Origin: Longimicrobium sp.
Lineage (GTDB): Bacteria > Gemmatimonadota > Gemmatimonadetes > Longimicrobiales > Longimicrobiaceae
DNA: 34,373 nt
Direction: 5' to 3'
Assembly (NCBI RefSeq): GCF_035474595.1
Contig: NZ_DATIND010000004.1
Span: 1-34,373, forward strand
Both the position numbers and the translations under genes were made by a program. The notes under the pieces are model-generated. The model did not search any database, was not told the origin of the DNA, and was given only the letters and a program-made list of their open reading frames with translations. Positions 1-34,373 of this stretch are shown here, one piece after another. Numbering within the stretch: position 1 is the first letter of the stretch; each line of letters starts with the position of its first letter.

Positions 1-1156
1 CACGGGCGTGCTCGATGTAGCCGGTGATCCTGTCGAAGGAGACGCGGTCGATCACCGCGCCCATGAAGTTGCGGAAATCCCGCACGTCTCCGACCCGCAC
101 CGTCTCCAGCATGGCGAGCACGCGGTCCCGCACCTCCTCCCAGCGATCGTCGGAGATGTAGACGCGCGACGCGGCGCTGCACTTCTGCCCCTGGTACTCG
201 TAGCCGCCGCGCACGATGGCCGTGGCCAGCGCCACCGGGTCGGCGCTGGCGTGCCCGAGGATGAAGTCCTTGCCCCCCGTCTCGCCCACCAGCCGCGGAT
301 AGCCGGCGTAGCCGCCGATGTTGTTCCCCACCGTCTTCCAGATGTTCTGGAACACCGCGGTGGAGCCGGTGAAGTGGATCCCGGCGAGCGCCCGGTCCTT
401 GAGGAGCACGTCGCTGATCATCACCGGGTCGCCGGGGAGCAGGTTCACCACCCCGGGCGGGAGCCCTGCCTCCTCCAGCAGGCGCATGATGTAGTAGGCG
501 CTGTACATCGCGCTCGCCGCCGGCTTCCATATGGCCACGTTCCCCAGGAGCGCCGGGGCGGTGGGGAGGTTGGCCGCGATGGAGGTGAAGTTGAAGGGCG
601 TCACCGCGTAGACGAAGCCCTCCAGCGGGCGGTGGTCCAGCCGGTTCCACTGCCCCGGGGGAGACTGCGGCTGCTCCGTGTACAGCTTCTGCGCGAAGGC
701 CGCGTTGAAGCGAAAGAAGTCGATCATCTCGCAGGCCGCGTCGATCTCGGCCTGGTGCGCGGTCTTGCTCTGGCCCAGCATGGTGGCGGCGTTCATCACC
801 GGGCGCCACGAGGTGGCCAGCAGGTCGGCGGCGCGGAGGAAAACGGCCAGGCGGTCCTCCCACGGCCAGGCGGCCCACTCGCGCTGCGCCTTCATGGCGG
901 CGTCCACCGCCTGCCGCACCTCGGCCTCGCCCGCGAGATGATACGTCGCCAGCACGTGGCCGTGGTCGTGCGGCATCACCGCGGTGTGCGTGTTCCCCGT
1001 GCGCACCTCGCGCCCGCCGATGATCAGCGGGATCTCGATCTGCTCGCCGGCCATCACCTTCAGCGCGGCCTTCAGCTCCGTGCGCTCCTGCGACCCGGGG
1101 GCGTACCCCAGCACCGGCTCGTTGCGCGGCAGCGGCACCTGCGGAATGCTATTCAT
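1..1156 (-). CDS. pruA: L-glutamate gamma-semialdehyde (P5C) dehydrogenase, partial at the window edge
   Basis: Aldehyde dehydrogenase superfamily enzyme that oxidises glutamate gamma-semialdehyde (from proline via P5C) to glutamate with NAD. 385 codons are visible; members of this group are usually about 540 residues, so the C-terminal third lies outside the window. The N-terminus (MNSIPQVPLPRNEPV) is of the type seen in the eukaryote/Bacteroidota ALDH4-like P5C dehydrogenases. The catalytic pair is present: general base E292 in VGETGGKDF and nucleophile C326 in GQKCSAASR; TPFNFTSIAANLP is the usual cofactor-site segment. ATG at 1156 is chosen because an AGGAGA ribosome site lies just upstream. 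No PutA proline dehydrogenase domain is fused to the visible part. Family assignment is firm; the substrate is inferred from family resemblance. Confidence 0.93.
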   Translation of the reverse strand, partial: MNSIPQVPLPRNEPVLGYAPGSQERTELKAALKVMAGEQIEIPLIIGGREVRTGNTHTAVMPHDHGHVLATYHLAGEAEVRQAVDAAMKAQREWAAWPWEDRLAVFLRAADLLATSWRPVMNAATMLGQSKTAHQAEIDAACEMIDFFRFNAAFAQKLYTEQPQSPPGQWNRLDHRPLEGFVYAVTPFNFTSIAANLPTAPALLGNVAIWKPAASAMYSAYYIMRLLEEAGLPPGVVNLLPGDPVMISDVLLKDRALAGIHFTGSTAVFQNIWKTVGNNIGGYAGYPRLVGETGGKDFILGHASADPVALATAIVRGGYEYQGQKCSAASRVYISDDRWEEVRDRVLAMLETVRVGDVRDFRNFMGAVIDRVSFDRITGYIEHAR

Positions 1157-1338
1157 CACCCGTCTCCTGTAGGCTCGGTTGCAGGGGCGCGTAAACTACC
1201 GAGCGCGTCAACCCCTCGCCACCCGGTGCCCCGCGTTCCGGCAACGCCGTCCTTCCGCCCGGAATCATCTTCCGCCATCTTCTGAACATCCTTTTCTCGA
1301 TCGCCGACCGCACCCACCCACACCTCCCGGAGGGAACG

Positions 1339-1569
1339 ATGAAGAAGCTGAAGCTCGAGATCGAAGCGCTGGAAGTGGAGTCGTTCGAGGCCAGCGAGTC
1401 CAAGGCGGAGGCGGGGACGGTGGAAGGGCGCGGGTGGACGCCGGCATGTGACAGCTTCCGCATCTGCGGGCCCAAGGACCCGAGCTACGATCCGTGCGGC
1501 CCCACCGAGGACCTGGCCTGCACCGGCACCTGCCAGTACAGCGACTGCTCCTGCCTGCTCTGCGGCTGA
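1339..1569 (+). CDS. Cys-rich RiPP-precursor-like peptide (76 aa)
   Basis: Small peptide with a charged leader-like half (MKKLKLEIEALEVESFEAS...) and a Cys-rich half. The second half carries eight cysteines (C37, C43, C53, C61, C65, C70, C72, C75) among Ser/Thr/Pro/Gly, and ends CSCLLCG. A clear GGAGGG ribosome site precedes ATG 1339. The leader style (xLEVESFE followed by GTVxG) resembles what I recall for orphan lanthipeptide-like precursors in Longimicrobium-type genomes; this is recollection, not a search. No modifying enzyme, protease or transporter gene is adjacent: the neighbours are P5C dehydrogenase (divergent) and an Ig-like lipoprotein (convergent). A LanB-like gene exists about 30 kb away at 31968. 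It could also be a small secreted or metal-binding Cys-rich protein. Confidence 0.7.
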   Translation: MKKLKLEIEALEVESFEASESKAEAGTVEGRGWTPACDSFRICGPKDPSYDPCGPTEDLACTGTCQYSDCSCLLCG

Positions 1570-1610: not shown

Positions 1611-1646
1611 ACCGCCCCCCGGAGCACGCGGGCTCCGGGGGGCGGT
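1611..1646. terminator. 15-bp GC-rich hairpin between convergent genes
   Basis: Perfect inverted repeat 1611-1625 / 1632-1646 (ACCGCCCCCCGGAGC and complement) with a 6-nt loop, between the peptide gene ending at 1569 and the lipoprotein gene ending at 1665 on the other strand. No T-tract on either side, so it is a likely bidirectional terminator by position rather than a canonical intrinsic one. Confidence 0.55.
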
Positions 1647-1664: not shown

Positions 1665-2672
1665 TCAGCTGCACACGAGTTGGGGGAAGCACGAGTTGCC
1701 GCCCGACTCCTGCTCGCCCGGGCCGCCGACCAGCGTGGTGACGCTGTTGAGCGCCGGGCCGGTGGCCGAGTCGCGGATCTCCAGCTTGATGGCGCGGTAG
1801 TTGTCGTAGCGCGACATGCTGCGCTCTACCGAGGTCAGGTTGGTGCCCTGCGCCACCACCTCGTAATCGGTGCACGGATCGACGGTGGAGCAGACGCTTT
1901 CCGACCAGACGTAGTAGTACGTTCCGCCGGGCTGCACGCCGGCGCTCACGGTGTAGGGCCCCTCGTACACGTACTGCGGAGCGGAGAGCGTGATGCCCGG
2001 CACCACGTTCAGCGTGGCGTGCGCCACCAGAATGCCGGAGTAGGCGTCGACCGTCACGGTGCCGCGGGCATTGGCGGCCGTGGCCACGCCGGAGGAGCTG
2101 ATCGTGGCGATCGAGGAGTTGGAGGTGCCCCAGCCCAGCATGCTGAGCGGATAGTCGTTGCCGTACTGGTCCACCCCCCGGGCGGTGAAGGTCACGCTCC
2201 CGCCGGCCGCCACCGTGGCGGTCGCCGGCGTGACCACCAGCTGGGACAGCGTGGGGGGCGTGCGTACGGTGACGGTCATCTGGCGGACGTACTGGTCCAC
2301 CTTCAGCGTCAGCACGGTCGTCCCGGCCGAGTACCACGCGACGTGGATGGAGTAGCCGCCGGGCTGGGTGGAGACGATGGTGCCCACGAACGGGTTCGAC
2401 GACGTCCACGTGACGGTGTGGGTGGACAGGTCCACGCCGCAGTGCTCGGGATCCTCGACCTCGGCCATGTAGATGGTCTGGTACTGCGACGCCCGCTCGT
2501 CGATGGACGACGGACCCACGAGCACCACGGACGAGATCTGCCCCGTGCAGGGCGGGGAAAGGCTGTGCGCCGGGGCGGCCGGCGTGGCGCGGCTGGCTGT
2601 GGGCGCGTCGGAGCAGCCTCCGATGGCAACGGCGAGCGTGGACAGCAGCAGAATGGGGCGGGTGAAGCGCAT
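1665..2672 (-). CDS. Lipoprotein with Ig-like (BIG2-type) domain
   Basis: 335 residues. N-terminal lipoprotein signal (hydrophobic ILLLSTLAVAIGGC, lipobox Cys C20). The centre holds a bacterial Ig-like repeat of the BIG2 kind: LSQLVVTPATATVAAGGSVTFTA..., with the typical TSNSSIATISSSGVATA core, preceded by a less regular beta-rich segment containing WTSSNP. The C-terminal part (about 230-335) has Tyr-rich beta segments and several Cys. Presumably exported and surface- or periplasm-exposed; a role in adhesion or structure is only a guess from the fold. GGAGG ribosome site precedes ATG 2672. It stands alone, convergent with the Cys-rich peptide gene. Confidence 0.8.
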   Translation of the reverse strand: MRFTRPILLLSTLAVAIGGCSDAPTASRATPAAPAHSLSPPCTGQISSVVLVGPSSIDERASQYQTIYMAEVEDPEHCGVDLSTHTVTWTSSNPFVGTIVSTQPGGYSIHVAWYSAGTTVLTLKVDQYVRQMTVTVRTPPTLSQLVVTPATATVAAGGSVTFTARGVDQYGNDYPLSMLGWGTSNSSIATISSSGVATAANARGTVTVDAYSGILVAHATLNVVPGITLSAPQYVYEGPYTVSAGVQPGGTYYYVWSESVCSTVDPCTDYEVVAQGTNLTSVERSMSRYDNYRAIKLEIRDSATGPALNSVTTLVGGPGEQESGGNSCFPQLVCS

Positions 2673-2931: not shown

Positions 2932-3159
2932 ATGAGCATCGTCGAACAGATCGAAGACACCCTCGACACCATCCGTCCCGCGCTGCGCGAGGACGGCGGC
3001 GACGTTGAGGTCGTGGGGTTCGACGACGGCGTGGTGCAGCTGCGGCTGGTGGGCGCGTGCAGCGCCTGCCCCATCAGCACGATGACGGTGAAGCAGGGGA
3101 TCGAGCGGCGCATCAAGTCCGCCATCCCCGAGGTGCGCGAGGTGCTGGCGGTGGCCTGA
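2932..3159 (+). CDS. NifU-like C-terminal domain Fe-S scaffold protein
   Basis: 75 residues, a stand-alone NifU C-terminal (Nfu) domain. These domains bind a [4Fe-4S] cluster between subunits through a CxxC motif and deliver it to apo-proteins. The motif is seen at C43-S-A-C46 in LVGACSACPISTMTVKQGI; the preceding DGGDVEVVGFDDGVVQLRL is the usual beta hairpin. The length is typical of a minimal Nfu domain. ATG 2932 is chosen because the probable transcription start is about 2897. It lies two genes upstream of an Mrp-type Fe-S carrier ATPase (3916), with a VOC protein between, so the region may be a small Fe-S maturation neighbourhood, though a terminator separates it from the next gene. Confidence 0.9.
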   Translation: MSIVEQIEDTLDTIRPALREDGGDVEVVGFDDGVVQLRLVGACSACPISTMTVKQGIERRIKSAIPEVREVLAVA

Positions 3160-21713: not shown

Positions 21714-22676
21714 TCACACCAGCGCGGGCTCGAGGTCGTGCTCGTCCACGCCGACCTGGGCGAGGAGGTCGGTGACGGGGGCGGCCAGGCGGTCGATCAT
21801 CTCCAGCACCGGCGCGGGGTCGGGCAGCGCGGCGGCCAGGACGCCGCGCCGCGCGTGCTCCGCCGCGATGCGCATGTGGTGCACGCAGAAGGCGAAGGCG
21901 CCGGAGCGCACCAGGATCTCCCTGGCAATCGCGTGCGCGGCCGGGTCGGTGGCGACGCGTGGCACCAGCGCGTGGAAGTGCTCGCGGTCCGGGTGGTCGG
22001 CCTCCAGCGCGAAGCGCAGCGCCACGTTGTCGCCCGGCCGCTGCCAGTCGGGGTGGATCTCCGCGCCCATCACGTCGCCCAGGTCGTCGCCGAGCTGCAC
22101 CAGGATGCCGAGCGGGATGCCGGCCGCCGCGAGCGCCTCCGCATCTTCCGGCGCCGCGCCGCCGCTCAGGGCACCCATCCGCAGCGCGGCGGTGAAGAGC
22201 GGCGGCGTCTTCGCCTCCACGATCCGCCAGTACGCGTCCTCGTCCTCCGCGCCCGCGGCGTCCATCTCCTGCCCGCGCGACGTTTCCCGCCCGGCGGCGG
22301 CCACGGCGCGCATCAGCGGCGCGCGGATCGCCGCCGGCGCTTCGTCCAGCATCTCCACCGCCATGCACTGCAGGGCCAGCGCGAGGTTGGCGCGCAGCCC
22401 GGGCGGCATGTCCACCACCGAGCGCTCCTCGCCGTCGATCAGGTCGTCGACCAGGTGGATGGCGGCGTGCAGCGCGTGCAGCGACGCGGCCGCGGGGAAC
22501 GCCGCCTCGTCCGCGCCCCCAGCCGCGCGGCACGCCCGCACCGCCAGCTCCGACGGCCCGGCGGCGCTGATCCCGCCCGCCAGCCCGGCCAGCACGCGCA
22601 TGGCGTCCCACTGCTGCTCGTCGGCGCGCCGGAGGAGCGCGCCGCCCACGTACCGCCGCATCGCATCGGTGCTCAT
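21714..22676 (-). CDS. ComQ-like polyprenyl-synthetase-family enzyme, candidate peptide prenyltransferase
   Basis: 320 residues, all-alpha isoprenoid synthase fold. First Asp-rich motif D77-D-L-I-D81 in HLVDDLIDGEE, second D197-D-L-G-D201 in LVQLGDDLGDVMG, plus intermediate RGQEMD (134-139) and VEAKTPPLFTAALRMGALSG. The N-terminal GGKRxRP motif that binds the IPP in chain-elongating enzymes is absent, as is the RR pair normally after the first Asp motif. ComQ of Bacillus, which isoprenylates a Trp of ComX, has the same kind of divergence. The gene is last in a run with three short Trp-containing peptide genes, 71 nt after the third. Inference: it prenylates these peptides. The alternative is a divergent isoprenyl diphosphate synthase serving quinone or terpenoid synthesis. 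ATG 22676 is the first Met before the conserved region. Confidence 0.85.
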   Translation of the reverse strand: MSTDAMRRYVGGALLRRADEQQWDAMRVLAGLAGGISAAGPSELAVRACRAAGGADEAAFPAAASLHALHAAIHLVDDLIDGEERSVVDMPPGLRANLALALQCMAVEMLDEAPAAIRAPLMRAVAAAGRETSRGQEMDAAGAEDEDAYWRIVEAKTPPLFTAALRMGALSGGAAPEDAEALAAAGIPLGILVQLGDDLGDVMGAEIHPDWQRPGDNVALRFALEADHPDREHFHALVPRVATDPAAHAIAREILVRSGAFAFCVHHMRIAAEHARRGVLAAALPDPAPVLEMIDRLAAPVTDLLAQVGVDEHDLEPALV

Positions 22677-22747: not shown

Positions 22748-22915
22748 TCACGCGCCGCGGCTGGGCGGCGCGGCCCAGTCGCCCCACGCGGCGAAGCCCG
22801 CTTCCGCCGCGACGGCGGGGCGGCGGCCGAGCTCGCGGTACGCCCGCACGTCGGCGTTCGCATCGCCGCGGCCGGCGAGCGACGCGCGGAACTGCTGGAT
22901 GCTGACCCTGGGCAT
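22748..22915 (-). CDS. ComX-like precursor peptide C (55 aa)
   Basis: Begins MPRVSIQQFRASLAGRGD and ends with FAAWGDWAAPPSRGA. Shares with peptides A and B the N-terminal MPR(I/V)SIQQFRA block, RAYRE at 24-28, RRP at 31-33, and W44/W47 at identical positions. Length and late Trp fit the ComX pattern of a short unstructured pre-pheromone; eight residues follow the second Trp. The most diverged of the three. The frame differs from that of the prenyltransferase gene, which begins 71 nt downstream. Confidence 0.75.
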   Translation of the reverse strand: MPRVSIQQFRASLAGRGDANADVRAYRELGRRPAVAAEAGFAAWGDWAAPPSRGA

Positions 22916-22943
22916 GGCTCGTCTCCCGGGGATGAAGGTGGAT

Positions 22944-22965
22944 GCCCGCCCGTCCTGGGGTGGGC
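22944..22965 (-). other. Intercistronic hairpin between peptides B and C
   Basis: GCCCGCCC (22944-22951) pairs with GGGTGGGC (22958-22965), one G-T pair. Same position relative to the genes as the hairpins at 22709 and 23227. Confidence 0.45.
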
Positions 22966-23002
22966 GGAGGACCGCCGCGGAAGTGGCGACGCGGCAGGCG
23001 GC

Positions 23003-23176
23003 TCAGGCGTTCGCTTCGGCCGAGACGTCGGGCGGCCACACCGACCAGCCCATCACCCGGGCCCCCGTCGCCAGCTCGGGGCGGCGGGCGATCTCGCGGT
23101 ACGCGCGGACGAGCGCGCCCGGCTCGGCGTGGCCGGCGAGGGACGCGCGGAACTGCTGGATGGAGATGCGGGGCAT
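23003..23176 (-). CDS. ComX-like precursor peptide B (57 aa)
   Basis: Begins MPRISIQQFRASLAGHAEPG, middle RAYREIARRPELATGA, end VMGWSVWPPDVSAEANA. W44 and W47 align exactly with peptides A and C; ten residues follow W47. The N-terminal half is nearly identical to peptide A while the residues around the tryptophans differ, which is the expected pattern for a recognition leader and a variable product region. No secretion signal or double-Gly cleavage site is evident. Confidence 0.8.
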   Translation of the reverse strand: MPRISIQQFRASLAGHAEPGALVRAYREIARRPELATGARVMGWSVWPPDVSAEANA

Positions 23177-23226
23177 GGACGGGCTCGCGGTGGGAGTGGC
23201 GCGCCGCCCGGACGGCGGCGCGGTCG

Positions 23227-23260
23227 TCCGCCGCCGCGGCAGAAACGCCGCGGCGGCGGA
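23227..23260 (-). other. Intercistronic hairpin between peptides A and B
   Basis: TCCGCCGCCGCGGC (23227-23240), loop AGAAAC, GCCGCGGCGGCGGA (23247-23260): a perfect 14-bp stem 10 nt after the stop of peptide A. Confidence 0.65.
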
Positions 23261-23270
23261 GGTGGAGCGC

Positions 23271-23441
23271 TCAGGCGGTGGTTTCGGCGACCGCCGAGGG
23301 CCACGCCGCCCACTCGGCGGCCTGCATCCCCGTCGCCAGGTCGGGGCGGCGGGTGATCTCGCGGTAGGCGCGGAGGAGCGCGCCGGGCTCGGAGCGGTCG
23401 ATGATCCGCGCGCGGAACTGCTGGATGGAGATTCTGGGCAT
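23271..23441 (-). CDS. ComX-like precursor peptide A (56 aa)
   Basis: First gene of the four-gene run. Begins MPRISIQQFRARIIDRSEPG, middle RAYREITRRPDLATGM, end QAAEWAAWPSAVAETTA, with W44 and W47. GGGAG lies 9 nt upstream of ATG 23441. No promoter could be recognised in 23442-23698 on this strand; the region holds only the divergent tRNA-Gly promoter. Small size and lack of a known family make the coding call depend on the three-fold conservation with peptides B and C, which keeps frame, length and the Trp spacing. Confidence 0.8.
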   Translation of the reverse strand: MPRISIQQFRARIIDRSEPGALLRAYREITRRPDLATGMQAAEWAAWPSAVAETTA

Positions 23442-23698: not shown

Positions 23699-23771
23699 GC
23701 GGGAGTAGCTCAGTTGGTAGAGCGTCAGCCTTCCAAGCTGAATGTCGCGGGTTCGAGTCCCGTCTCCCGCT
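23699..23771 (+). tRNA. tRNA-Gly (TCC anticodon)
   Basis: 73-nt cloverleaf. Acceptor GCGGGAG/CTCCCGC with discriminator T, D-arm GTAGCTCAGTTGGTAGAGC, anticodon stem TCAGC/GCTGA with loop CTTCCAA (anticodon TCC, reads GGA), T-arm GGGTTCGAGTCCC. CCA is not encoded. Confidence 0.97.
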
Positions 23772-23778
23772 CCTCGTC

Positions 23779-29993: not shown

Positions 29994-31286
29994 ATGACGC
30001 GCTCCCGCATGCGACCCGCATCCATCGTCCCGCTCGCCGCTTTTGCCGCGTCGCTCCTTGCCGCCGGTGTCGCGGCCGCGCAGCAGGGGCAGGCGCCGGC
30101 GGACGAGCGCTATCCCACGCGCTGGGCGCCGCGGATCGCGAGCGCGCCGGCGGTGCGCGACGCGCTGCGGTGGCTGGACGGCAACTTTCCCGCGCAGGTG
30201 CAGGAGTGGGTGCGCATCACGCAGATCCCCGCGCAGTCCACGCACGAGCAGCAGCGCGGCGCCTACGTGGCCGAGCAGATGCGCGCGGCGGGGCTGGAGG
30301 TGTCGGCCGACTCCATCGGCAACGTCACGGGGCGACGGCGGGGGAGCGGCGGCGGGCCGACGGTGGTCTTCGCCACGCACATGGACACCGTGCACCCGAT
30401 GGACACCGACGTCACGGTGAAGGTCGACGGCGGCATCCTGCGCGCGCCGGGCGTGTTCGACAACTCCGCGTCGGTGGCCGACATGCTGGCCGTGATCCGC
30501 GCGATGAACCAGGCCGGCGTGCGCACCCGCGGCGACGTTGTCCTCGTCGCCACGGTGCAGGAGGAGCTGGGGCTGGTGGGGATGGACTGGTGGCTGGCCC
30601 ACAACCCGCGCCCCGACATGGTGGTGGCGGTGGACGGCGGGCTGGGGCCGGTGAGCTACGGCGCGCTGGGGATCTACTGGACGCGCTACCACTTGACCGG
30701 CGAGGGAAGCCACACCAACACCTCCACCGGCAAGCCGCACCCGGCGCACGCCATGGCCGACGCCATCCGCTCCATCTACGAGCTGCGCGTGCCCGAGAAC
30801 CAGGGCGGCGCCGTGTACAACGTGGGGATGGTGGGCGGCGGCAAGGTGTTCAACGCCATCCCGCAGGACGTGTGGTTCACCGTCGACCTGCGCTCCGTGA
30901 ACCCCGCGCTCCTCGATTCGCTCGACGCCGAGATCACCGGCCGCGTGCAGCGCGCGGCGACGGAGAACCACGTGGCGTGGAGCCGCGAGGCCGTGCAGCA
31001 CCAGCGCGCCGCGGGAACGGAGGAGATGCTTCGCGACCGGCGCGCCGACCCGATCGTGCAGACCGCGCTGGACGTGCACCGCTTCCTGGGCATCCCCGCG
31101 CGCGCCGAGGCGACAGGGTCCACCGATTCGAACATGGCGGTGACGCGCGGCATCCCCTCCATCTCGGTGGGCCGCGCGCGCGGCGGCGACCAGCACACGC
31201 TAAGCGAATGGGCCGACCGCGACAGCGCCCTCCCCGCGACCCGGATGCTCCTCCTCCTCGCCGTCAGCCTCGCCGGGATGCGATAG
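29994..31286 (+). CDS. Secreted M20-type zinc metallopeptidase
   Basis: 430 residues. Signal peptide (SIVPLAAFAASLLAAGVAAAQ). M20 family di-zinc exopeptidase: ligand and catalytic segments FATHMDTVHP (His and catalytic Asp), GVFDNSASVADMLAV (bridging Asp), VQEELGLVG (catalytic Glu, ligand Glu), MVVAVDGGLG (Asp) and a C-terminal GGDQHT (His). A dimerisation-domain insert lies between about 215 and 335 (RYHLTGEGSHTNTSTGKPHP). The variant Asp-Asn after GVF, where Gly-Ala is common, is within family variation. Export suggests peptide scavenging; substrate unknown. Solitary gene. Confidence 0.9.
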   Translation: MTRSRMRPASIVPLAAFAASLLAAGVAAAQQGQAPADERYPTRWAPRIASAPAVRDALRWLDGNFPAQVQEWVRITQIPAQSTHEQQRGAYVAEQMRAAGLEVSADSIGNVTGRRRGSGGGPTVVFATHMDTVHPMDTDVTVKVDGGILRAPGVFDNSASVADMLAVIRAMNQAGVRTRGDVVLVATVQEELGLVGMDWWLAHNPRPDMVVAVDGGLGPVSYGALGIYWTRYHLTGEGSHTNTSTGKPHPAHAMADAIRSIYELRVPENQGGAVYNVGMVGGGKVFNAIPQDVWFTVDLRSVNPALLDSLDAEITGRVQRAATENHVAWSREAVQHQRAAGTEEMLRDRRADPIVQTALDVHRFLGIPARAEATGSTDSNMAVTRGIPSISVGRARGGDQHTLSEWADRDSALPATRMLLLLAVSLAGMR

Positions 31287-31967: not shown

Positions 31968-34373
31968 ATGACCTTACCCTGGGAAGACCGGACCGAGCCC
32001 GGCGAGTGGCTGGGCACGCGCTTCGTCTGCCGCGTCTCCGGCGCGCCCGCCGACAGCGTGGACGAGCTGCGCGCCGCCCGCACCCTGGAGCTCGTCCGCC
32101 GGCTGCACGCCTCCGACGAGCAGCTGCGCGAGCGCCGCGAGCCGCTCTCGGCCCTCCTCTTCGGCGCCATCGGCCGCGCGGGCGACGACAAGCCGCTGCG
32201 CAACAAGCTCATCACCCTGAAGCGCGAGCTGTACAACCTCCGCCCGCTGGCCGCCGCCAAGCTCGACGCCGCGGTCGCGGTGCTGGATGATGGCGATGCC
32301 GAGGGCGTGCGCGCCTTCGCCGGGCTGCTGGAGGAGCGTGCGCGGCTGGAGGGCGAGCTGCGCGAGTCGTACGGCGCCGAGACGCCGGAGCTGCGCCGCC
32401 GCTTCCTCGACCTCCTGGCCGACGCGGACTTCCGCAAGGGGCTGATGATCTCCAGCCGCTCGCTGCACGGCGCGCTGGACCGCTGGGGGCAGGCGGTGGC
32501 CTCGGCCGGGGCCGAGCTGAACGGCAAGGAGGAGAAGACCGAGCGCGGGCTGCTGCGCTACTACACGCGCATGGCCATGAAGGCCACCCCGTTCGCCACC
32601 TTCTGCGCCATCATCCCCGGCGCCTTCGTCGACGAGGCCGGGTACGCGGGCGAGGGCACCTTCCGCTTCGACCGGAACCCGCGCGAGAAGCGCAGCTTCG
32701 TGCGCATCAACAAGTTCATCTACGGCCTGCTCTTCGACCACCTGAAGACGCGCCCCGCCGTCCGCCACGCCCTCCGCGTCGAGCTCAATCCCACGCTCCG
32801 CGAAGAGAGCGGGCGGCTGGTGTTCCTCACCGCCATCGAGGCGCGCGAGGTGTTCCAGCGGCTGGCCAACAACGAGGTGCTGGAGCTGATCACCGGCACC
32901 TTCCGCGGGCTGGGCAAGCCCACCATGGGCGAGCTGATCGCCGCGCTCTCGTCCGATCCGCAGATCGAGGCCGAGCCCGAAGAGGCCGAGGCGTACCTCG
33001 ACAAGCTCATCGAGATCGGCTTCCTGCGCTTCCACACCGGGATCCGCGAGCAGGACGCCGACTGGGACCTGCCCTTCCGCGCGCTGCTGGACGGGATCGA
33101 CGACGAGCACGCCCGCATCTCGTCCGAGCTCCTGGCGCACCTGCGCACCGTGGTCGAGAGCTACACCGACGCCGAGGTGGGCGAGCGGGCGCGGATGATC
33201 GAGGAGATGCACGCGCTGCTGAACGAGGCCATCGAGAAGATGGAGGTGGAGCAGCGCCTCCGCCGCGACATGCCGTTCTACGAAGACGCCACCTCGCCCG
33301 CGCGCGCCGAGGTGCCGCTGACGCCCGCCATCCGCCGCACCTTCGATACCTGGAGCGAGTGGGTGCGCCTCACCAGCCGCGTCTCCTGGCCGCGCGGCGA
33401 GCAGGCCACCATGCGGCACTTCTTCGACACCTTCTACGCCGAGGGCCGGCGCAGCGTCCCCCTCCTGGTCTTCTACGAGGACTTCTACCGCGAGCACTTC
33501 AAGGCGCACGTGGAGAAGGAGGCCAAGGTCCGCGCGGGGGTGCAGGACGACGAGGTGAAGGGGTACAACATCAACAACCCCTACGAGCTCGATTTCGTCA
33601 CCCGGCTGGGCGCCGCGCGCGACCGGCTGGGCGAGGCGATCCGGCAGAAGTGGATGGCCGAGCCCGAGGCCGAGGAGATCACCGTGACCGCGGCCGAGGT
33701 GGACGAGGCGCTGGACGGGGTGGAGAACAGCTCCACCGTCTGCCGCTCGATGGGCACCTTCGCCTGCCTGGTTCCCGGCGGGGACGACGGCGCGCCGCCG
33801 CGGCTGGTGCTGCAGGGCGGCAGCTACACGGCGGGGTTCGGGAAGTACTTCTCCCGCTTCCTGTACATGCTCCCCGACGACGTGCAGGAGCAGGTGCGCC
33901 GCGAGAACGCCGCGCTGACCGACGAGTACCTGGCCGAGATCTGCGGCGACGCGCAGTTCAACGCCAACCTCCATCCCCCGCTGCTGCGCTGGGAGATCAG
34001 CTACCCCACCGGCGAGAGCGGCGCGGCCGACGAGCAGCTGAAGAGCTCCGACATCTTCGTGGAGCCCGATCCCGAGGATCCGTTCACCCTGCGGCTCCGC
34101 CACGGGCCCACCGGGCACCGGGTGATCCCCGTGGACCTGGGCTTCCTGAACCCGCGGATGCGCCCGCCGCTCTACCAGCTCCTGTCGCGCTTCACCCCGC
34201 CCGTCACCTTCGGCCCCGGCCTCCCCGAGTCGCCGGAGCGCCGTCCGCCGCCGCCCCCCGAGCCGACGCCGGAAGCGAAGGCGGAGGACGGGAACGCGGA
34301 GGACGGGAGCGCGGAGGATGGACAGGCGGAAGCCGCGGCCGACGCCCAGCCCGCCGTCGCCGCCGCCGATGCG
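31968..34373 (+). CDS. LanB-like lantibiotic dehydratase (partial, runs off the window)
   Basis: 802 codons visible, still open at the end. LanB enzymes dehydrate Ser/Thr of RiPP precursors by glutamylation from Glu-tRNA. The N-terminal lantibiotic-dehydratase domain is recognised by YTRMAMKATPFATFCAIIPG near residues 200-220 (the R-x-TPFG-F hallmark) and FVRINKFIYGLLFDHL around 245; later WSEWVRLTSRVSWP, LLVFYEDFYREHF and NPYELDFVTRLGA continue the domain. After about residue 730 (LLSRFTPPVTFGPGLP) the sequence becomes a Pro/Glu/Ala-rich low-complexity tail with an (A)EDGN/S repeat. ATG 31968 is the only start giving the normal N-terminus; no good ribosome site. No precursor peptide is visible upstream in the window. 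Confidence 0.85.
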   Translation, partial: MTLPWEDRTEPGEWLGTRFVCRVSGAPADSVDELRAARTLELVRRLHASDEQLRERREPLSALLFGAIGRAGDDKPLRNKLITLKRELYNLRPLAAAKLDAAVAVLDDGDAEGVRAFAGLLEERARLEGELRESYGAETPELRRRFLDLLADADFRKGLMISSRSLHGALDRWGQAVASAGAELNGKEEKTERGLLRYYTRMAMKATPFATFCAIIPGAFVDEAGYAGEGTFRFDRNPREKRSFVRINKFIYGLLFDHLKTRPAVRHALRVELNPTLREESGRLVFLTAIEAREVFQRLANNEVLELITGTFRGLGKPTMGELIAALSSDPQIEAEPEEAEAYLDKLIEIGFLRFHTGIREQDADWDLPFRALLDGIDDEHARISSELLAHLRTVVESYTDAEVGERARMIEEMHALLNEAIEKMEVEQRLRRDMPFYEDATSPARAEVPLTPAIRRTFDTWSEWVRLTSRVSWPRGEQATMRHFFDTFYAEGRRSVPLLVFYEDFYREHFKAHVEKEAKVRAGVQDDEVKGYNINNPYELDFVTRLGAARDRLGEAIRQKWMAEPEAEEITVTAAEVDEALDGVENSSTVCRSMGTFACLVPGGDDGAPPRLVLQGGSYTAGFGKYFSRFLYMLPDDVQEQVRRENAALTDEYLAEICGDAQFNANLHPPLLRWEISYPTGESGAADEQLKSSDIFVEPDPEDPFTLRLRHGPTGHRVIPVDLGFLNPRMRPPLYQLLSRFTPPVTFGPGLPESPERRPPPPPEPTPEAKAEDGNAEDGSAEDGQAEAAADAQPAVAAADA

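Follow-up and report, generated by a model that had tools for sequence, protein, structure and literature searches.

A cysteine-rich peptide gene of Longimicrobium belongs to a large dispersed precursor family with a pinensin-like leader

Pinensins are made with a split LanB together with a LanC related to LanM, and the available portion of the same paper cautions that mining limited to the vicinity of LanC misses precursors that are scattered (PMC7268733). In the class II prochlorosins, precursor genes stand singly or in tandem at scattered sites, with 83 and 79 per genome as the highest counts given in the excerpt of PMC10783134 on which we rely; their leader is of the Nif11 type as far as the partial source text goes, and the accessible part of PMC11251773 assigns the prochlorosins no function. 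A third point of reference is TglI, described in an extract of PMC10880893 as a helical N-terminal part followed by an RRE in the C-terminal part. For Longimicrobium terrae, lanthipeptide clusters are listed from antiSMASH and no scattered family is mentioned (PMC7291104). Likewise, in the titles and abstract openings of the open-licence PMC literature on Longimicrobium/Gemmatimonadota, pinensin, split LanB and class I modification in trans, we found no dispersed class I family.

We analysed a window that is the entire contig C4 (34,373 bases) of a Longimicrobium assembly of 163 contigs (6.57 Mb, 96.85% complete, 3.95% contamination). Our main reading, to which we give a probability of roughly 0.7, is that a short gene near its start codes for a lanthipeptide precursor of the pinensin type (class I, split LanB); it would be one of 181 found in this genome, and a single maturation set, with its genes elsewhere, would read their common leader. 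An earlier note on this DNA had suggested that the gene product is a modified peptide; the results below support that reading, the chemistry itself being an inference.

The target gene and its locus

The target ORF (1339-1569, plus strand) begins with ATG and encodes 76 residues, MKKLKLEIEALEVESFEASESKAEAGTVEGRGWTPACDSFRICGPKDPSYDPCGPTEDLACTGTCQYSDCSCLLCG. It has the strong ribosome site that had been claimed for it, and its eight cysteines do fall within the last 40 residues (positions 37, 43, 53, 61, 65, 70, 72 and 75), residues 1-36 being free of Cys. Residues 4-30 match the NCBIfam model NF038180 leader_pinensin (E 1.5e-4, 21.6 bits, below the curated cut-off of 24); a Pfam scan of the protein returned no match. 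When its own genome was searched with the target protein, 33 further places were found at E < 0.001 (best 2.6e-8), all of which align from residue 1 or 2. Since chance would not account for these same-genome matches together with the NF038180 match, we regard the ORF as confirmed to be a real gene.

The gene is divergent from a truncated aldehyde dehydrogenase (ALDH) gene (Table 1). Maturation genes are indeed absent nearby, as had been said of the near neighbourhood, which holds the ALDH, Big_2 and NifU-like genes; no LanB/LanC cluster surrounds the target, and the LanB of the window lies about 30 kb away. The hairpin downstream of the stop has no T-run on the plus strand, and a terminator scan there gave only a 5-pair site on the minus strand. 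Elsewhere in the window, three tandem paralogous ORFs of 55-57 aa (MPR[IV]SIQQFRA...; 22748-23441, minus strand) lie 5' of a polyprenyl synthetase-like gene (21714-22661, minus strand) and near a tRNA-Gly (23699-23773); a Pfam scan of these ORFs returned no match.

Table 1. Positions of features in the window.
Feature	Position	Strand	Basis or remark
Aldehyde dehydrogenase (ALDH), truncated at contig end; synteny anchor	2..1156	-	PF00171 E 3e-70
Shine-Dalgarno GGAGG	1329..1333	+	5 bases 5' of target ATG; read from sequence
Precursor, leader part, residues 1-28, ending in conserved GTV	1339..1422	+	Leader profile common to 181 genes of the genome; NF038180
Precursor, core part, residues 29-76, eight Cys	1423..1566	+	Border after GTV is a convention only
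Perfect 13-bp GC hairpin 3' of target stop (CCGCCCCCCGGAG ... CTCCGGGGGGCGG)	1612..1645	+	Read from sequence
Big_2-domain gene, other flank of target	1665-2672	-	
NifU-like gene after the Big_2 gene; second synteny anchor	2932..3159	+	PF01106 E 2.3e-28
M20/M28-type peptidase	30153..31286	+	Similar gene precedes LanB-N in relative G008
LanB glutamylation subunit of split LanB, 802 aa read, truncated by contig end	31968..34373	+	PF04738 E 3.4e-37

In the relative G001, a precursor of 100 aa lies between ALDH and NifU; its orientation is that of the target, but its core is for the most part different. No precursor was found in this interval in G008, G006 or G005; this member of the family is therefore not conserved. 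Four further genomes were uninformative for the locus: G009, G014 and G015, in which the neighbours of ALDH differ and no precursor lies within about 1.5 kb, and G002, which gave no ALDH match. Clean core orthology between the target and the G001 gene was considered and is not clear; 5 of the 180 paralogues match the target core as well as or better than this positional counterpart.

The empty intervals, the different core in G001 and the five paralogues would all suit a target that is merely a drifting copy, newly gained or decaying, without a product. We hold this to be quite unlikely, given that the frame is intact, the ribosome site good, the leader full and all eight Cys present, and that the cores of the family show a pooled dN/dS of 0.47. 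The latter value comes from 43 core-matched pairs between the window's genome (G000) and 82 sampled precursors of G008 (leader 0.58; 26 of 27 residues common in the best core pair); it is biased low because the pairs were picked by core similarity, and the target is not among them. Individual precursor sites seem to turn over, with some products kept.

A shared leader on dispersed, divergent cores

A leader profile (A1) was built from 38 leaders, that of the target included, and all 150 candidates scored out of 413 from a first look matched it (E 9e-18 to 5e-8). A first pass gave 178 precursors, and refining the profile on those 178 gave 181, both at E <= 1e-3. These 181 distinct leader-bearing precursors come from the stretches read (~0.89 Mb of 6.57 Mb), which were chosen around leader matches and mostly extend only some 4-5 kb from a match. 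Because the number of candidates scored was capped and only ~0.89 Mb was read, the figure of 181 should be close to a lower bound, and we put the family at roughly 180 or more; some of the weakest members may be chance matches (e.g. one of 32 aa at L125). A search for further precursors with the same leader had been proposed in the earlier note, for which an unshared leader was half of the refuting result; 181 genes share it. The target is an orphan, as it had been called, only in having no maturation gene close by, and not in its kinship, since it belongs to a large dispersed family.

The precursors are spread over 55 contigs in 89 islands, counted as separate when more than 5 kb apart; 56 of these consist of a single gene and the largest hold 9. 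Six of the 181 lie in a maturation cluster on contig C23 and 175 lie outside it. The 178 of the first pass are all different and have a median length of 70 aa; the start codon is ATG in 174 of them, and 162 show a sequence resembling a ribosome site. The leader consensus is MKKLxLxxxxLxVESFxT...GTVxG, with K3, L6, L11, F16, G26 and T27 invariant in the 38 leaders and V13, S15 and V28 nearly so; each of these nine positions is retained in 152 to 180 of the 181 precursors. Mean leader identity is 51% within islands and 46% between them, and mean core identity 32% and 21%, respectively (243 and 1938 pairs). In a sample of every third member, 27 of 61 matched NF038180 at E <= 0.01 (best 6.3e-6) and 34 did not. 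No recurrent neighbour family was detected among genes near the precursors (maximum 4 of 201 near genes).

No clear upstream motif common to the precursors emerged: the initial k-mers resemble Thr-Cys codons of neighbouring precursors, and upstream regions without precursor neighbours (115 vs 413) gave weak k-mers only (best p 1e-4 among hundreds tested). As side observations, two family precursors on contig C119 (L072, 4535-4822 and 7877-8161, minus strand) have cores made of three near-identical repeats (CGG[IV][HQ]TCG.GC), which is internal core duplication, and one of the 61 sampled precursors (A8) also matches TIGR03601 heterocycloanthracin/sonorensin (E 6e-7), perhaps via its Cys-rich repeats.

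Cysteine is nearly confined to the cores (1186 of 8122 core residues vs 9 of 5056 leader residues in 178 precursors), every one of which contains it. Ser plus Thr equal or exceed Cys in 175 of 178 cores, a number not reached by length-matched shuffles (162.9 ± 2.5, maximum 171 in 2000 shuffles). Ser/Thr are enriched around Cys at -1, -5 and +3 (z 21, 17 and 10), and the peak at -5 persists for Cys without Ser/Thr at -1 (197/587 vs 118/588 at -4, in 159 less redundant cores). The commonest spacing between neighbouring Cys is 4 (245 of 1008 pairs), which suits metal-binding or disulfide peptides too. It is possible on these grounds that the dispersed precursors are not thioether-modified at all, being leader-guided, exported, Cys-rich disulfide or metal peptides, so that only the six members in the cluster are true lanthipeptides. 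Yet the dispersed members carry the leader of those six, and their Ser/Thr numbers track Cys. Nor is there a preference for even Cys numbers (98 even and 80 odd in 178 cores, p 0.20), so an all-disulfide fold is not indicated. We consider this explanation unlikely, if still one to keep in mind, and prefer that of a lanthipeptide family modified in trans.

Maturation genes and a predicted leader-binding domain

At E <= 0.001, PF04738 has two matches in the whole genome (window 32421-34190; C23) and PF14028 has one (C23), and LanC-like matches lie on C23, C25, C136 and C87. A search for LanB and LanC genes elsewhere, which had also been proposed, is answered by contig C23, where a split LanB, LanC, exporter and protease are present as one cluster in the order LanB-N fragment, LanB-C (PF14028), LanC (683 aa), six precursors, ABC exporter, HlyD-type adaptor and S8 protease. 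PF04738 and PF14028 are separate ORFs here, as they are in G001, G007, G008, G009, G014 and G015, and the C23 gene order is found, complete or partial, in G001, G002, G007, G008, G009, G014 and G015; in G006, the exporter genes are on the opposite strand. (Genes were called on codon-position GC; plain ORFs were used for most Acidobacteriota and other distant loci.) By profile, LanB-C matches MibB, MadB and NisB, and LanC matches LicM2 best and also NisC. The C23 LanC has a PF05147 match (E 2e-57), and its WCHG and CHG motifs, which we take from NisC to provide the zinc ligands, are invariant in 8 LanC aligned to LicM2. A C39 protease domain was not found in the ABC exporter of the cluster.

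The LanB-like gene at 31968 had been named earlier as a possible source of the enzyme. As judged from its domain match, and from a LanB-N profile (A3) that includes the window protein and matches TbtB 6ec7 (E 3.1e-38), it is a genuine LanB glutamylation subunit. In G008 (L112), the order is peptidase, LanB-N, LanB-C, LanC, precursors and ABC exporter, and the window ends in a similar peptidase followed by LanB-N, which suggests, through synteny in one relative, that the window LanB heads a pinensin-type maturation cluster. That the ends of C4 and C23 hold one and the same LanB copy was rejected (overlap 82.5% in DNA, 146/170 residues); each of the two fragments is identical to the G008 LanB-N at 150/170 residues. 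They may be two copies, in tandem or apart, or may come from two strains that were binned together.

A PEARL pathway would be an alternative for the window LanB-N, whose glutamylation-only architecture is common to PEARLs and split LanB; PEARLs are described as lacking an elimination domain in the part of PMC11117183 available to us. However, PF14028 and LanC genes adjoin LanB-N on C23 and in relatives, and variable Cys-rich cores are unlike a constant scaffold, which leaves this alternative highly improbable.

Other synthetases exist in this genome, C136 carrying one of class II and C87 one of class III; they are not excluded as maturases of the target, and other short ORFs of their own adjoin them. 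On C136 (L040, 297-4231, minus strand) the class II LanM stands with two tandem short Cys-bearing ORFs with an unrelated leader, and on C87 (L041, 5190-8714, plus strand) the class III LanKC lies between two short Cys-bearing ORFs. C25 has an ORF of 1044 aa that ends in a LanC part and is probably a class II LanM, a helper role not being excluded. Among the relatives, contig C273 of G014 (L119, 2311-19998) has genes resembling LanB-C and LanB-N, accompanied by eight short ORFs (EEVA[GK]G followed by Cys), next to a very long ORF, NRPS-like by eye. Two other precursors of relatives, with long Cys-Ser repeats (L113, 4825-5097, plus strand; L111, 14000-14242, minus strand), adjoin LanB genes.

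Leader and LanB-C occur together across genomes. Of 25 genomes searched for both, 9 have both and 16 neither (co-occurrence test 4.9e-7), with leader and LanB-C counts of at least 150 and 1 in the window's genome, 136 and 1 in G001, 11 and 1 in G002, 1 and 1 in G006, 15 and 2 in G007, 150 and 2 in G008, 70 and 2 in G009, 57 and 5 in G014, and 41 and 1 in G015 (leader numbers are lower bounds). Among 200 genomes of the phylum, the leader was found in at least 5, all with LanB-C, which was itself found in 11 (co-occurrence test 1.8e-7); three of those five (G000, G002 and G009) are also in the 25-genome set. No leader was found in the other 6 LanB-C genomes, and in four of these, open frames of >1060 aa at the LanB-C match suggest a fused LanB. 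Leader zeros are not proof of absence, because at most 150 (25-genome set) or 39 (200-genome sample) candidates were scored per genome. The counts are phylogenetically non-independent, relatedness among genomes inflating the tests, and the enzyme surveyed was LanB-C, not LanC. In two of the five, G192 and G194, the single precursor found is close to LanB-C (at 2 kb and 0.2 kb, respectively), the ordinary arrangement, and the scattered state thus seems to reflect an expansion within the family to which the window's genome belongs. The earlier proposal that the target is served in trans, by the gene at 31968 or by a central locus, fits this co-occurrence, trans service itself being inferred.

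The LanC homologue of G015 (L143), which is 53% identical to that of the window's genome, was modelled (pLDDT 84). Its cyclase barrel (residues 5-438) resembles CuvL (Z 28.3). The last 241 residues, modelled separately (pLDDT 85.9), matched 8hci_A of TglHI, a chain that we take to be TglI (Z 12.9, 209 aligned, 4.5 Å), NGO1945 (3dee, Z 12.2), and many RREs, some of them solved with leader: TbiB1 with leader (5v1v, Z 8.9, 88/88 residues, 2.6 Å), lasso B1 (6jx3, Z 8.1), PqqD (7.7), NisB (7.7), and TbtB and MccB (within 7.7-8.9). These RRE scores lie near the level that the structure-comparison tool calls common, and 8hkr_B, by title a methyltransferase and not an RRE, ranks above them (Z 10.8). 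Foldseek gave TglHI as the best match (8hi7, E 2.2e-5) and RREs from E 0.08 upward, and the sequence match of the extension to PqqD is weak (E 0.02). By alignment, the extension also occurs in MAG loci of Gemmatimonadetes, Acidobacteriota, Thermoanaerobaculia and Ignavibacteriales, several of which have a leader-like precursor beside LanB-C. The C-terminal part of LanC is predicted from these models, without leader-binding data, to be a TglI-like RRE of the PqqD/RRE winged-helix fold.

NGO1945-type proteins are partners of DUF692 iron enzymes, and the resemblance of this part to TglI and NGO1945 could again favour dispersed peptides without thioether rings. Against a DUF692 partner, no DUF692 match was obtained among the scanned cluster proteins.

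In the lanthipeptide reading that we prefer, the common leader of about 28-30 residues would be recognised in trans by one shared maturation set, the TglI-like RRE fused to LanC helping to hold it. LanB-N (glutamylation) and LanB-C (elimination) would convert core Ser/Thr to dehydro residues, which LanC would couple to Cys to give thioether rings. The ABC exporter, HlyD adaptor and S8 protease would export the product and remove the leader, and the secreted product may act on other microbes. Recognition in trans, the rings, leader removal by S8, export and such an action are inferred from the genes, and we have no evidence on product, expression or modification.

Comparison with known systems

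With the pinensins, the present system has in common a leader that fits the NF038180 model only weakly (below the cut-off in the target), a split LanB, and a LanC nearest by sequence to the cyclase domains of class II LanM. It differs in having 175 of its 181 precursors away from the C23 maturation cluster, in its widely varying cores, in the predicted RRE on LanC (the LanC of the pinensin producer was outside the comparison), and in phylum, pinensins coming from Bacteroidota. TglI/NGO1945-type RRE proteins have the helical N-terminal part and RRE C-terminal part that match the last third of LanC in the models, but here the RRE would be joined in one protein with a lanthionine cyclase instead of serving as the partner of an iron enzyme.

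The organisation resembles that of the prochlorosins and synechococsins, the class II peptides of marine cyanobacteria: one enzyme set (here inferred) serves many precursors whose leader is conserved while their cores differ, and the genes are dispersed, some single and others in tandem. The enzymes, in contrast, are a split LanB and LanC and not LanM, the target leader has its (weak) match in the pinensin model rather than in a Nif11 one, and LanC has CHG motifs where ProcM-like enzymes have a CCG zinc motif. ProcM-like LanM is not found beside the leader-bearing precursors, whose neighbours are LanB-N, LanB-C and LanC, LanB-C being the co-occurring gene. The precursors found here number 181, compared with at most 83 per genome in the prochlorosin text available.

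Precursor numbers per genome range over at least 1, 11, 15, 41, 57, 70, 136, 150 and 181. We lean, by a narrow margin over even odds, towards the stronger statement that one RRE-equipped class I synthetase set makes at least 181 thioether-ringed peptides, which would be the largest lanthipeptide repertoire of one genome, independent of the prochlorosins and arisen by lineage expansion. A search confined to the surroundings of LanB/LanC overlooks most of the precursors in this genome (175 of 181). If one shared set finishes all of them, as is probable, this would be a natural collection of ringed peptides of unusual size, and its enzymes would be on offer for building libraries of such peptides. 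A scattered lanthipeptide library modified in trans has been described, in the source portions at hand, for the class II prochlorosins; a class I system would be an independent case with another enzyme mechanism and a cyclase that seems to bring its own domain for binding the leader, which allows asking whether it is the zinc motif or the capture of the leader that makes such enzymes promiscuous. Our best reading is that the logic is prochlorosin-like and the enzymes are not, with a repertoire more than twice the largest prochlorosin count (83) in the published text available to us.
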